This document shows positions 11,635-22,273 of a stretch of 24,019 nt of DNA, piece after piece. The notes under the pieces are model-generated. The model was not told the origin of the DNA. It saw only the letters and a program-made list of their open reading frames with translations, and made no database searches. A program made the position numbers and the translations under genes. The stretch comes from a virus, in IMG/VR virus record IMGVR_UViG_3300032665_001702, positions 1 to 24,019 of that record; one strand, 5' to 3'. Positions within the stretch are counted from its first letter, which is position 1. Every line of letters starts with the position of its first letter.

Positions 11635-12543
11635 ATGAAAAAAAGTCTAGCCAAATTTGTTATGATGACGCTAGCCGTTCTGGTGAATTACTCGTATGCG
11701 GGTGATAATACCATTTATATTAATCAATCCGGCAGTAACTCTAATGTTTCAGTTACACAAAACGGAGCAGGTGATGCAGTAGAAGGTGTACAAAGCACAG
11801 GTTCTAGTGCTACTACTCCAGCAGTTATTGTTGGTAATAGTAATAATGTAACTGTAAACCAAGTAGGTACTGGTGATACATTACAACTTGGAATTCAAAC
11901 AACTATTGCTAATGGTATTTCCAACGGCAACAATTATAGTTACTCTATTACTGGTAGCAATTCTACTGCTGTAATTAACAGTAACAATGATGGATCAGGA
12001 ACAAGTGCAAGTAATAATATTAACGTAAACCAAACAGGTAATACATCTAATTTAAATGTTAATCTATTGGGAACAGGCAACAACTTGACAGCAACAACTG
12101 CTGGTGGTACAAGCAATAGTGTAGTGGCCACAATTAACGGTACAGGTAATAACGATACTGTTACTATGAATGGTGGTGGTGCAAATAGTTTTACTTTAAA
12201 TCAAGGTAACTCTACAACTGCCGCAACAACTAGCAATGTTACATTAAGTTCTACTGGTGCAAGTAATACTTTTGGAATTACTCAAACTGGTGGTACTAAT
12301 GGTAATACTGTTACTGTTGGTGGTTATAGTGCTACTACAAATACTCCTAGTGGAGCTTTGAATGGTTCTAGTAACACGGTTACTGTATCTCAAACAGGTG
12401 CAGCAGATAATACCTTTATATTAGGATTAACTGGAAGCACCAACACAGTTAGTGTAACACAATCGGCAAGCTCTGGCAACAACACTACTAATATTCAAAC
12501 CAGCGGTAGTAATAATAGTTGGACAATTCACCAGACACATTAA
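11635..12543 (+). CDS. Curlin-repeat protein (CsgA/CsgB-like), 302 aa
   Basis: A signal peptide (cleaved near A22) precedes about 280 residues of Asn/Gly/Ser/Thr-rich curlin-type repeats. Examples are NTIYINQSGSNSNVSVTQNG (25-44), NNVTVNQVGTG (70-80), NNINVNQTGN (127-136), NTFGITQTGG (211-220) and SNTVTVSQTGA (246-256). The chain ends in SWTIHQTH. These follow the curlin pattern N-x-(V/I)-x-(V/I)-x-Q-x-G with internal Q/N ladders, so a beta-helical amyloid subunit is expected. It is longer and less regular than E. coli CsgA (151 aa). It lies immediately after CsgG with AGGAA before the ATG, so it is the likely substrate of the pore. Whether it behaves as major subunit or nucleator cannot be told. 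Confidence 0.88.
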   Translation: MKKSLAKFVMMTLAVLVNYSYAGDNTIYINQSGSNSNVSVTQNGAGDAVEGVQSTGSSATTPAVIVGNSNNVTVNQVGTGDTLQLGIQTTIANGISNGNNYSYSITGSNSTAVINSNNDGSGTSASNNINVNQTGNTSNLNVNLLGTGNNLTATTAGGTSNSVVATINGTGNNDTVTMNGGGANSFTLNQGNSTTAATTSNVTLSSTGASNTFGITQTGGTNGNTVTVGGYSATTNTPSGALNGSSNTVTVSQTGAADNTFILGLTGSTNTVSVTQSASSGNNTTNIQTSGSNNSWTIHQTH

Positions 12544-13826: not shown

Positions 13827-14504
13827 ATGAAAAAATTATTAATCTTCTTATCTTTAATTTCAACTATAGCAATGGCTGATTCGTTTGATGCTTCAGTTGG
13901 TGCCTTATCCGATTATCGTTTTCGTGGTATCAGTCAAAGTGATTTAAAACCTAGTGCCATATCACAAGAAGAATATTCTGCTGATAATGGTATTTGGTTA
14001 GGAAACAAACTTGATACTGTTAGTAAACAAGAATATTTAAATGGTACAGGTATTGAGTCTGACTATTATATTGGATGGACCCATAAATTTGATGATATTA
14101 AAATATATGTGGGAGATTATGAATACACTTATCCTGGTGCCACAAACTATAATACAAATGAAGTATTTGCTCAATTGAGATATTCAAATATTACTTTAAA
14201 ATATTATCGTAGTTTAACTGATTACTTTGCAATACCAGGCACAACTGGTACTCAGTATTATAGTGTAGATTATTATTTACCTATCAAAGATGTTACATTT
14301 GTTTCTCATGTTGGTCACACACAAAATGCTTATTCATATTCGGATTGGAAGTTTGGTCCAACAATGAACATTTATGGTGTTGATGCTTCACTATCATATT
14401 ATTGGAATTCTGGTATGAGTTCCGATTTTAAATTAATGAATACTGTAAATGGCAATCAACTTTATCGTAACTCTGTTGTATTAGGATTAAGTAAATCATT
14501 CTAA
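13827..14504 (+). CDS. TorF/Gcw_chp-type outer-membrane beta-barrel protein
   Basis: A signal peptide, MKKLLIFLSLISTIAMA, is followed by ASVGALSDYRFRGISQSD (22-39), the diagnostic opening of the Gcw_chp / TorF putative porin family (SDYRFRGISQS). Alternating strands rich in Y, F and W follow. The chain ends in LGLSKSF with C-terminal Phe, the BAM targeting signal of outer-membrane proteins. At 225 aa it is in the family's range. It lies one base after the FecR gene and shares TAATG with the second curlin gene. Possible jobs are a surface porin, an anchor for exported fibres, or superinfection exclusion through receptor replacement. The sequence does not decide between these. Confidence 0.85.
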   Translation: MKKLLIFLSLISTIAMADSFDASVGALSDYRFRGISQSDLKPSAISQEEYSADNGIWLGNKLDTVSKQEYLNGTGIESDYYIGWTHKFDDIKIYVGDYEYTYPGATNYNTNEVFAQLRYSNITLKYYRSLTDYFAIPGTTGTQYYSVDYYLPIKDVTFVSHVGHTQNAYSYSDWKFGPTMNIYGVDASLSYYWNSGMSSDFKLMNTVNGNQLYRNSVVLGLSKSF

Positions 14505-15823
14505 TGAAACGATTTTTATTATTACTTCTTTTTTTCTGTTCTTCTGCCTTTGCTCAATTTTCAAGTGTTGAGTTTGGTGCAGCACAAATTGCCGACACAC
14601 AATGGGATACAGGTAATTGTTTAAGTTCGAATACATGTACCATATACAGTAAAAATTTAGGTGGCACTTATGAAACAGGAAGTTGGACACCATTATCATC
14701 AGGCCAGTATGTTAGTTTTGTTTCTAGTGGAAATTCAACATATCCTTGGCAGATGAATTTATATAATAGTAATGGATCATTGAATAGAGTTTTGGGTATA
14801 GGTCAAATTATTGTACGAGGAACATATAATGGAAACTACTATATGTTCTTTACAAATGCAAATTATAATGGTACATTATTGAGTGCTCAAGTTGGTATGA
14901 CAGGTTCATCTGGATTTACATTTACAGGAACAGAGAATCCAACAGTTGCACAAACCAATGCGGCCGCTGCAAGTTGGACCAATACACCATTGACTGGTGG
15001 ACAAACTTATATACCAGCACCAACGTATGTTAGTGGTATTACTGGTACACAACAAACACAAGTTAATACTGTTAATGCTAGATTGGCCGCTTTAACAAAT
15101 TCAACACCTAATCAAATTTATATTAATCAAGTTGGTTCTGGTGATATACACAATTATACACAATCAGGACCAGGTAATATTATTGACGGTGCAACATACA
15201 TCAATTCAACTCCCGGTTACACACAAGTTGCTTCTATTACTGGTGGATCAAATCAAGTAAAGATTAGACAAGGCGATCCACAATCTAAATCAGGTAAAAA
15301 CATTATTGATTTAAATGTAACCGGATCAGGTAACATTTTGAACTTAAATCAAGGAACCGATTCTGCTGGTACATATACCGGTTTAGATACTGGTGGACAT
15401 TATCAATATGATTATATTAATGGTGCAACAAATAGTGTAACTGTTGTACAAGAAAATACTGGTGCAAACGAAGGTATGTACTCATCATTATATCTTAATG
15501 GCAATTTGAATACTGTTGGTATCACACAAACTGGCACAGCTAAGATGCAATTGTTTGCATCAGTTACAGGTAACAGTAATACACTAACAACAAGTCAGAC
15601 AGGAACAGGTGCACATTATTTAAGTGTTACTGAAACTGGTAATGGAAATTCAGCAGTGGTTACTCAAAATAACAGTAGTGCTCCTGGTGCTAATGCTGCC
15701 ACGATAGTTCTAAATAACAACGGAGCACCTGCTTCGGTAAATGTAACACAAACCGGTGGACAAACTTATAACATTACACAAACTTGTGTAACTACATGTG
15801 GAACTGTAACAGTACATCAATGA
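14504..15823 (+). CDS. Curlin-repeat protein with long unique N-terminal region, 439 aa
   Basis: A signal peptide is cleaved near A17. Residues 18-200 form a non-repetitive, beta-rich domain with two cysteines (C39, C45) that I do not recognise. From about 203 the chain becomes curlin-like: NQIYINQVGSGD, NILNLNQGT, NSVTVVQENTG, NTVGITQTGT, NTLTTSQTGTG and NSAVVTQNN. It ends TQTCVTTCGTVTVHQ with another cysteine pair (C428, C432). The end VTVHQ echoes WTIHQTH of the first curlin. A fibre-tip adhesin, nucleator or cell-attached subunit is plausible, with the N-terminal domain giving specificity. The gene overlaps the porin stop and the cyclase start, so the proteins are made together. Confidence 0.82.
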   Translation: MKRFLLLLLFFCSSAFAQFSSVEFGAAQIADTQWDTGNCLSSNTCTIYSKNLGGTYETGSWTPLSSGQYVSFVSSGNSTYPWQMNLYNSNGSLNRVLGIGQIIVRGTYNGNYYMFFTNANYNGTLLSAQVGMTGSSGFTFTGTENPTVAQTNAAAASWTNTPLTGGQTYIPAPTYVSGITGTQQTQVNTVNARLAALTNSTPNQIYINQVGSGDIHNYTQSGPGNIIDGATYINSTPGYTQVASITGGSNQVKIRQGDPQSKSGKNIIDLNVTGSGNILNLNQGTDSAGTYTGLDTGGHYQYDYINGATNSVTVVQENTGANEGMYSSLYLNGNLNTVGITQTGTAKMQLFASVTGNSNTLTTSQTGTGAHYLSVTETGNGNSAVVTQNNSSAPGANAATIVLNNNGAPASVNVTQTGGQTYNITQTCVTTCGTVTVHQ

Positions 15824-19662: not shown

Positions 19663-19736
19663 TGGAGCGGGATGACAGAATCGAACTGACAACAACAGAT
19701 TGGAAATCTGTAGTTTTACCATTAAACTAATCCCGC
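19663..19736 (-). tRNA. tRNA-Gly(TCC)
   Basis: The acceptor is GCGGGAT/ATCCCGC with T73 and encoded CCA. The anticodon stem ACAGA/TCTGT holds the loop TTTCCAA. It reads GGA/GGG. It lies 7 bases before tRNA-Asn in transcript order. Confidence 0.95.
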
Positions 19737-19741
19737 AAATC

Positions 19742-19808
19742 TGGAGCGGTGTACTGCTTTGCTCAGCTAATACAAAAGGGTATTTTGTATCGTACTATTA
19801 CACACCGC
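19742..19808 (-). ncRNA. tRNA-like RNA with CCA end, not a canonical tRNA
   Basis: Sixty-seven bases fold into a reduced cloverleaf. The perfect 7-bp acceptor GCGGTGT/ACACCGC is followed by T and CCA. A D-like mini-hairpin is GTA-ATAG-TAC. The central hairpin ATACAAAA/TTTTGTAT has 8 bp but only a 5-nt loop (TACCC), leaving no normal anticodon loop. The last arm GCTG-AGCAAAG-CAGT has a 7-nt loop lacking TTC. It lies between tRNA-Thr and tRNA-Gly, and a good promoter fires about 3 bases before its 5' end, so it is probably expressed and processed. It could be a decayed tRNA or a functional mimic. Its acceptor shares GCGG with the adjacent tRNA-Gly. Confidence 0.55.
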
Positions 19809-19817
19809 ATATTTAAT

Positions 19818-19846
19818 ACTATAACATTACTTATACACAAAGTCAA
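19818..19846 (-). promoter_or_regulatory. Sigma70-type promoter upstream of the tRNA-like RNA
   Basis: On the minus strand, TTGACT (19841-19846), a 17-bp spacer and TATAGT (19818-19823) match 5/6 and 5/6 of the consensus. The predicted start near 19811 is almost at the 5' end of the tRNA-like RNA. Transcription would continue through tRNA-Gly, tRNA-Asn, the structured stretch and tRNA-Met. Confidence 0.7.
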
Positions 19847-20655: not shown

Positions 20656-20743
20656 TTGTTATAGTGAAATGTATACACAGGCCGCTAACTGTAGCATTGC
20701 GGTAACAGTCGAACTGATGCTTCTATACATTTCACTATAACAA
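20656..20743 (-). repeat. 20-bp perfect inverted repeat enclosing a structured 48-nt loop
   Basis: ttgttatagtgaaatgtata (20656-20675) and its exact reverse complement (20724-20743) can form a 20-bp stem. On the minus strand the enclosed 48 bases can form AGCAT/ATGCT (with CAGT/ACTG inside) and ACAG/CTGT hairpins. The stem ends 4 bases before the 5' end of tRNA-Ile2. It covers the last third of the small basic-protein gene, so it is also translated. It has no T-run, so it is not a terminator. An RNase III-type processing signal or a small inserted hairpin element would both fit. Confidence 0.7.
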
Positions 20744-20865
20744 CTTCTTTTTGACTTCTCACTACGTCTTACTGCTTTATTACTTTTGCGATGACTCCCT
20801 GCTTTTCGAAACAATGCCAATTTGACAAGATAGTTCCGAGGTTGGGGAGTATTTTTCTTTTTCAT
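20659..20865 (-). CDS. Small basic protein, 68 aa, with hairpin-encoded C-terminus
   Basis: The ATG at 20865 follows a perfect AAGGAG. The first 40 residues (MKKKNTPQPRNYLVKLALFR, then KAGSHRKSNKAVRRSEKSKR) are strongly basic. I have the impression that similar RN..V.LA..RKAG.H.K..KA.RR.EK proteins occur in marine T4-like phages, where they end soon after this motif. Here the frame continues through the 20-bp inverted repeat, adding 27 unrelated residues (SCYSEMYRSISS...VYISL). This suggests that the original 3' end was altered by the repeat. It is likely a nucleic-acid-binding protein, but no function is known. I rejected an upstream in-frame extension because it runs through a structured leader and tRNA-Tyr. 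Confidence 0.65.
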   Translation of the reverse strand: MKKKNTPQPRNYLVKLALFRKAGSHRKSNKAVRRSEKSKRSCYSEMYRSISSTVTAMLQLAACVYISL

Positions 20866-20895
20866 AATACTCTCCTTAAAAATACGGGGCTCGTT

Positions 20896-20956
20896 GTGTA
20901 AACGGGACGGCCACCTCCGTTGTTGTCGGCCGAGAATCCTCAACCCATTGTTACAC
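20896..20956 (-). other. Structured leader upstream of the small basic-protein gene
   Basis: On the minus strand GTGTAACAATGGG and CCCGTTTACAC form an 11-bp stem with two bulges. It encloses a CGGCC/GGCCG hairpin with a 15-nt loop. The GC-rich hairpin stands out in an AT-rich spacer. It lies between tRNA-Tyr and the AAGGAG of the small basic-protein gene, so it may control that gene or punctuate processing of the tRNA transcript. Confidence 0.4.
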
Positions 20957-20970
20957 TCAATACAACAAAC

Positions 20971-21054
20971 TGGTGGGGAATACTGGAATCGAACCAGTCG
21001 TGCCATAGGCGGCGGATTTACAGTCCACTGCATCACCATTGATGCTTCTTCCCC
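20971..21054 (-). tRNA. tRNA-Tyr(GTA)
   Basis: This is a class II tRNA with a long variable arm. The acceptor GGGGAA-/TTCCCC region carries A73 and encoded CCA. The anticodon arm is GTGGA-CTGTAAA-TCCGC and the T-arm ACTGG-TTCGATT-CCAGT. The long variable loop (about 13 nt) and GTA anticodon agree. Confidence 0.93.
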
Positions 21055-21137: not shown

Positions 21138-21147
21138 ATAAAACTTT

Positions 21148-21179
21148 GTTACTAACACAATTTTAGTTTGTCTAGTAAC
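21148..21179 (-). other. Hairpin upstream of tRNA-Glu
   Basis: GTTACTA/TAGTAAC (7 bp) with an inner ACAA/TTGT (4 bp) lies between the predicted promoter and tRNA-Glu, ending 10 bases before the tRNA 5' end. It lacks a T-run. It resembles the other hairpins placed just before tRNA 5' ends in this array. Confidence 0.45.
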
Positions 21180-21191
21180 TCAACAGAAACC

Positions 21192-21219
21192 ATTATACAC
21201 TAACCACAGAAAAACACAA
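21192..21219 (-). promoter_or_regulatory. Possible promoter before tRNA-Glu
   Basis: On the minus strand TATAAT (21192-21197) is preceded by TTGTGT (21214-21219) with a 16-bp spacer. The -10 is perfect and the -35 weak. The 130-base gap between tRNA-Pro and tRNA-Glu has no gene, which fits a promoter here for tRNA-Glu, tRNA-Tyr and downstream genes. Confidence 0.5.
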
Positions 21220-22182: not shown

Positions 22183-22273
22183 TGGCGGAAGGATGGCGTA
22201 ATCGAAACCCTGGCCATTTCTGGCTCCACTTGTGTTCAAAACAAGGCTTGCATCCCCGGCAAGACAACCTTCC
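22183..22273 (-). tRNA. tRNA-Ser(TGA), T-arm imperfect
   Basis: The acceptor is GGAAGGT/TCCTTCC (T-T at 7-66) with G73 and encoded CCA. The D-arm is CTTGC/GCAAG. The anticodon arm is CTTGT-TTTGAAC-ACAAG, with a class II variable hairpin GCCA-GAAA-TGGC. The T-arm (GGGTTTCGATTACGCC) does not form a clean 5-bp stem with a 7-nt loop, so the gene may be damaged or need unusual folding. Confidence 0.7.

Follow-up and report, generated by a model that had tools for sequence, protein, structure and literature searches.

Non-proteinogenic tRNA-Gly molecules of Staphylococcus, which donate glycine to the cell wall, have lost determinants for EF-Tu (PMC9976931). They retain glycine identity while lacking elongation determinants, as the phage RNA described here also appears to, but they are full-size and cellular, whereas the phage RNA is 66–72 nt long, with an 8-bp central stem, a 5-nt central loop and no Fem-type partner that we could find. 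An equally compact core occurs in tRNA-Pyl, which works in translation (PMC7609411). It has been proposed (van den Berg 2023, PMC10264068) that phage tRNAs with altered anticodon loops evade tRNases of the host; these are phage-encoded and altered in the same loop, yet are full decoding tRNAs, while our mini-RNA cannot plausibly decode. Plant-virus tRNA-like structures are viral tRNA mimics recognised by a synthetase, but they form the 3′ ends of genomic RNA, unlike the free small RNA encoded by this DNA phage. The open-access literature on phage tRNA-like RNAs and glycine-tRNA mimics yielded no description of the family.

The window analysed here (24,019 nt from a T4-like aquatic phage; positions 1 to 24,019 of IMG/VR virus record IMGVR_UViG_3300032665_001702) carries on its minus strand, at 19742..19808, a putative mini glycine-tRNA mimic of 67 nt, including an encoded U73-CCA end; we assign it to class 1 of the family from its sequence, fold, family covariation and CM match. 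The minus-strand DNA (19808..19742) reads GCGGTGT GTA ATAG TAC G ATACAAAA TACCC TTTTGTAT TA GCTG AGCAAAG CAGT ACACCGC T CCA, giving the RNA GCGGUGU-GUAAUAGUAC-G-AUACAAAA-UACCC-UUUUGUAU-UA-GCUG-AGCAAAG-CAGU-ACACCGC-U-CCA. The 7-bp acceptor is joined by a 3-bp D hairpin, GUA-AUAG-UAC, with a 4-nt loop (19792..19801, minus strand), an 8-bp central (‘anticodon’) stem and loop whose last pair is 32:38 (19770..19790, minus strand), and a 4-bp T-arm (19753..19767, minus strand) with a 7-nt loop, AGCAAAG, which by sequence and alignment is without T54-Psi55-C56. A first-pass annotation had listed a perfect 7-bp acceptor with U73-CCA, a shrunken D hairpin, an 8-bp central hairpin with a 5-nt loop and a 7-nt loop without TTC, and all of these are present. 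Its phrase ‘no anticodon loop’ was right only in part: the loop has 5 nt, not 7, but this loop, UACCC (positions 33–37; 19778..19782, minus strand), carries C35 and C36, the glycine anticodon doublet. The predicted fold of the window RNA has an energy of −20.0 kcal/mol (z = −3.8), with none of 200 shuffles equally stable, and sequence comparison shows a compact L made of the acceptor, the 3-bp D hairpin, the 8-bp stem with its 5-nt loop, the short T-arm and a D-loop:T-loop elbow pair.

Standard tools pass over this RNA. ARAGORN called ten tRNAs in the window, none of them the 67-nt RNA, and in the family it called none of the 133 class 1 copies and none of the 101 class 2 copies. Rfam gave no match at the window RNA even at E ≤ 10, RF00005 included, and none of 4,227 Rfam models matched at the family RNAs. 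A custom CM (R1) scored the window RNA at 91.6 bits (E 5.5e-22), the window being among the model’s own sequences and the E-values rough. ARAGORN also missed a likely tRNA-Ser(UGA) elsewhere in the window (22187-22273, minus strand), where the Rfam tRNA-Sec model scores 33.9 bits, below its gathering score.

Scanning IMG/VR with the acceptor alone gave a cluster of 66–69-nt RNAs alongside ordinary 74–77-nt tRNA-Gly genes. A second scan, with the D hairpin and CCC fixed and the acceptor free, gave 114 stretches, including a few leftover chance matches with no acceptor. Class 1 as assembled comprises 109 copies, equal to 55 distinct sequences, on more than 100 IMG/VR phage contigs. Class 2 RNAs (66–72 nt, loop GUCCA, T-loop UGCRANU) occur on roughly as many further contigs, with at least 50 distinct sequences parsed among the matches listed, and some contigs carry both classes together. 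The scans used exact patterns, so about two hundred phage contigs, the two classes combined, is a minimum estimate, and the composition of the set is shaped by the patterns. A similar pattern, run once over 84,980 genomes of prokaryote species, gave four matches, none with the fold; a cellular origin was therefore rejected, and the RNA appears to be a phage RNA.

Other unusual elements were seen in these phages. A 58-nt element that shares the GCGGUGU...ACACCGC-UCCA acceptor, but has one hairpin only and lacks the CC loop, is present at 1856-1913 of L002 (minus strand), and also in L004 and L065; it matches the family model weakly (16.4 bits, E 0.22). Full-size tRNA-Gly-like genes with the odd T-loops UGCAAGU, AGCGUAA and GGCAGAA lie in L035 (a 173 kb contig), L030 (10072-10145) and L005 (1243-1318), and aberrant glycine tRNAs look common in phages of this kind.

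Covariation in related phages, which the first-pass annotation had proposed as a check, proved strong. In the class 1 alignment of 55 sequences, 96.2% of cells are paired, compared with 83.1% in shuffles (cells being sequences, not independent events), and pairing falls to about 30% when the partner is slid by one column. Changes on both sides were found at 14 of the 23 class 1 pairs; these include a D-loop:T-loop pair and the whole 8-bp central stem, where up to five pair types occur at one position. Pair 32:38 is Watson-Crick in 55/55 (AU in 32, GC in 23). Class 1 shows no variation in the D hairpin, which the search pattern fixed there, while the D-stem covaries in class 2, in which 97% of cells are paired and two-sided changes occur at 14 of 24 pairs. 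The last base of the D-loop, G in the window, covaries with the T-loop C: this equivalent of G19:C56 is GC in 46 sequences and AU in 9, so the tRNA elbow contact is apparently kept; the nine AU sequences have other traits in common, and the change may be a single event. Acceptor position 7 is mismatched in half of the class 1 sequences.

These data bear on whether the RNA is a decayed tRNA or a processing spacer in a tRNA operon. A same-strand tRNA-Gly lies no more than 120 nt away at 26 of 54 class 1 loci and, in the window, an ordinary tRNA-Gly(UCC) called by ARAGORN (19663..19736, minus strand) lies 5 nt downstream and has a 14-nt flank in common with the RNA, which may therefore have arisen by tandem duplication. 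That adjacency and flank would suit decay or a spacer. Such a reading is scarcely credible, however, given compensatory changes in both classes, stand-alone copies with a terminator, the conserved loop doublet, and the comparison of the window RNA with its near relative L066, in which eight of nine substitutions preserve pairs. A decayed tRNA-Gly was thus rejected on covariation and on the breadth of the family; as the first-pass annotation had argued, this is not simple decay, since relatives on more than 100 contigs keep the same odd RNA instead of a normal tRNA.

The key test of identity was to scan with acceptor and loop both left free. GCGG...CCGC-U-CCA was then found in 48/48 distinct class 1 sequences, although acceptor positions 5–7 took nine forms, and CC was found in 48/48 loops (UACCC, CACCC, UUCCC, UACCA, UACCU and others), including the few that parse ambiguously. 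The equivalent class 2 scans gave 30 and 11 distinct sequences with CC in every loop, and all complete class 2 sequences have GCG...CGC-U-CCA; acceptor position 4 varies (G46 A2 T2 among the matches listed). Across both classes, with the loop left free, C35 C36 is therefore present in 89/89 distinct sequences. The published bacterial glycine identity set is U73, G1-C72, C2-G71, C35 and C36 (PMC9976931). At the level of sequence, the conserved bases of the family (G1:C72, C2:G71, U73, C35 and C36) thus track what bacterial GlyRS reads. The first-pass annotation had suggested that the RNA might mimic tRNA to occupy synthetases, RNase P, CCA enzymes or a tRNA-cutting defence nuclease; a promoter-driven, CCA-ended tRNA mimic under selection it appears to be, but the conserved identity set narrows the likely partner to host GlyRS or another factor that reads tRNA-Gly, not synthetases generally.

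Two further readings of these invariant bases were weighed. An antisense-type small RNA, with its C-rich loop pairing with target mRNAs, would fit a small hairpin loop whose CC never varies and the existence of stand-alone promoter–RNA–terminator genes; we regard it as very improbable, with just two loop bases invariant and with the acceptor G1C2G3, U73 and CCA left without a role. Alternatively, the RNA could be a decoy or protected substrate for a defence enzyme that attacks tRNA-Gly, either an anticodon nuclease or a TacT-type acetyltransferase, any recognition by GlyRS being incidental. The proposal that altered-loop phage tRNAs evade tRNases (PMC10264068) lends this some precedent; TacT reads U73 and G71, both kept in the family (PMC9976931), and host-type promoters suggest early expression. 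TacT would, however, leave the conservation of C35 C36 unexplained, and the strictly conserved U73 and G1C2 are not easily accounted for by an anticodon nuclease, so we judge a defence target unlikely.

Features needed for decoding and normal elongation appear, from the alignments, to have been lost. A decoding tRNA has a 5-bp anticodon stem and a 7-nt loop with U33 and a purine at 37; here the stem has 8 bp and, because the covarying 32:38 pair is Watson-Crick, the central loop is 5 nt, not 7. In class 2 this pair is flipped from UA to AU in two members. Loop position 33 is U, C or G (G33 in class 2), position 34 is A, U or G, and position 37 is C, A or U, with C37 in most class 1 sequences; neither U33 nor a purine at 37 is kept. 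T54-Psi55-C56 and G18G19 are likewise absent, the T-loop being AGCAAAG or UGUGAAU, with G at position 55, and the D-loop AUAG or AUAA. The 4-bp T-stem and the frequent mismatch at position 7 would fit reduced EF-Tu binding, although this is suggestive only.

As in the tRNA-Pyl of, for example, Methanomassiliicoccus alvus, the phage RNA has no linker between acceptor and D-stem, a 4-nt D-loop, a tiny variable region, no G18G19 or T-Psi-C and a lengthened anticodon stem. The likeness is of architecture only: the stem is 8 bp, not 6, the loop 5 nt, not 7, and the identity that of glycine, not pyrrolysine, with U73 and an NCC loop in place of the G73 discriminator and CUA anticodon.

Larger relatives were sought among cultured phages. 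Among named phages, blastn queries with the window RNA and one class 2 RNA brought up no genuine relative. With filters off, the family model gave 19.6 bits (E 0.003) for Pelagibacter phage HTVC008M and 29 bits (E 1.4e-5) for Pelagibacter phage Mosig; searching the whole records with this model, which at first look gave no candidates, did not recover these RNAs. The HTVC008M RNA (NC_020484 91140-91213, plus strand; 21141-21214 of our locus L317) is an unannotated gene that resembles tRNA-Gly(ACC), has the T-loop AGCGUUA and is the only tRNA that ARAGORN calls in the whole genome, which has been listed with 0 tRNAs (PMC7029224). The Mosig RNA (MT647606 7779-7852, minus strand; locus L321), also unannotated, is 74 nt long and Gly(ACC)-like with T-loop GGCAGUA; it was missed by ARAGORN, has an apparent promoter of its own and overlaps an annotated small hypothetical protein. 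Both resemble class 1 in the GUA...UAC D-stem, ACC in the loop, G55-C56 in the T-loop and GCGG...UCCA, but differ from the family in their 74 nt, 5-bp stem, 7-nt U33-ACC-A37 loop and larger D-loop. By sequence they are probably larger relatives of the family and, given that 7-nt loop, the lineage may once have decoded GGU.

HTVC008M has the same run of csgF, csgG and adenylate/guanylate cyclase genes as the window, which ties the window to its phage group. Within this csgF/csgG/FecR/CHASE2-cyclase run, the window encodes a secreted-looking protein of 302 aa (11635-12543, plus strand) in which a curlin repeat scores over the Pfam cut-off. It is a candidate curli fibre subunit, a component described as missing in papers on related phages. 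The ORF at 14504-15823 has similar-looking repeats and no Pfam match.

An unusual but functional elongator tRNA-Gly reading GGN, built like compact tRNA-Pyl or mitochondrial tRNAs, would be consistent with NCC at the loop centre, with the full-size Gly(ACC) relatives and with the ability of tRNA-Pyl to work in translation. It fits poorly with the fixed 5-nt loop, with C37 in most of class 1, G33 in class 2 and a variable position 34. Moreover, phage contigs already have tRNA-Gly UCC and GCC: four large records (G001, G003, G004 and G005; fragments or of unestablished completeness) carry both along with exactly one copy of the RNA each. A working elongator therefore seems improbable to us.

The arrangement of the gene was compared across loci. 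The window has a sigma-70-type promoter, TTGACT-N17-TATAGT with TG before the −10 (19818..19846, minus strand), with the same spacing in relatives, as in the comparison with L066; its −10 ends 9 nt before the RNA, placing +1 about 2–3 nt upstream, much as the first-pass annotation had it. A single promoter of this type is within chance in the window’s region (16 found against 13.1 expected). Across the family, however, a promoter-like sequence is conserved: window-type promoters are predicted at 33/85 class 1 loci (2.9% in shuffles) and 36/82 class 2 loci (3–4% in shuffles over the two classes), mostly ending 9 nt upstream, and terminators at 23/79 class 2 loci, compared with 1.8% in shuffles. 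Locus L046 is a full unit of promoter, RNA and a strong terminator beginning 7 nt past CCA. The suggestion that the RNA heads a tRNA transcript would fit the window, where tRNA-Gly(UCC) and then tRNA-Asn follow on the same strand, but is not a requirement, as no tRNA gene lies within 1.5 kb at 7/54 class 1 and 15/43 class 2 loci. In the 105 kb record G006 (a fragment or of unestablished completeness), tRNA-Gly(UCC), 68 nt from the RNA, is the sole tRNA match.

No partner gene emerged from these neighbourhoods. ORF clustering around 104 loci found no conserved neighbouring enzyme, only common T4-like genes such as GroES-like. The L038 RNA, a related one, and several genes of class 2 have no tRNA nearby and are flanked by a DUF4338 gene and a T4-like peptidase gene. 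The DUF4338 (DruA) gene, at 3884-5227 of L046 and 4469-5806 of L038, is directly upstream of stand-alone RNAs. This adjacency is not evidence of partnership, because the protein is encoded in all ten large contigs tested, several of which have the RNA inside a tRNA cluster. Close to the RNA or the tRNA cluster, a small basic protein (MKKKNTPQPRNYLVKLALFRKAG...) is encoded repeatedly, at about 20659-21039 of the window (minus strand), 7691-7876 of L203 and 5183-5401 of L204.

The pattern of kept glycine identity with lost elongator features, and the loss of EF-Tu determinants by the Staphylococcus tRNAs (PMC9976931), would also suit a glycine donor that GlyRS charges, that is kept off EF-Tu and that serves a non-ribosomal aminoacyl transferase, much as in the staphylococcal cell wall. 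Against such a donor, which we think has a low probability, are the lack of a constant neighbouring enzyme around family loci and the finding that eight phage records of 105–180 kb have neither a FemAB (PF02388) nor a peptidyl-tRNA hydrolase (PF01195) gene.

The explanation that we favour, at about even chances for the chain as a whole, is a non-decoding glycine-tRNA mimic that host GlyRS binds and probably charges, and whose role is that of decoy or sink; sequence comparison establishes the fold and the glycine identity, while charging and purpose are conjectural. The RNA would be transcribed from a host-type promoter and trimmed at its 5′ end, with its CCA already encoded. It would then be bound, and probably glycylated, by host GlyRS, and the glycylated RNA would be a poor substrate for EF-Tu and the ribosome. 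Acting in trans, it may decoy or sequester GlyRS or other tRNA-Gly-recognising host factors. Several points tell against this explanation: the GlyRS of the host may need more than the conserved bases, the 8-bp stem displaces the CC doublet from its place in a normal tRNA, the larger Pelagibacter phage relatives have a 7-nt U33-ACC-A37 loop, and the neighbourhoods revealed no conserved partner gene.

We suggest, more tentatively and at somewhat less than even chances, that these RNAs may constitute a new class of phage effector RNA, derived from tRNA, charged by GlyRS, unusable by the ribosome and spread in T4-like phages of aquatic bacteria, where it would divert or decoy the glycine-tRNA system. 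Missed by ARAGORN in every copy examined, yet widespread in phage contigs, the RNA appears to have been overlooked and to do something other than ordinary translation, and as a small defined RNA it would allow simple tests of charging and binding. If the proposal is true, the family would be a natural experiment that splits tRNA function, keeping synthetase identity and discarding codon reading, and it would bear on a long-standing question, why phages carry tRNAs.
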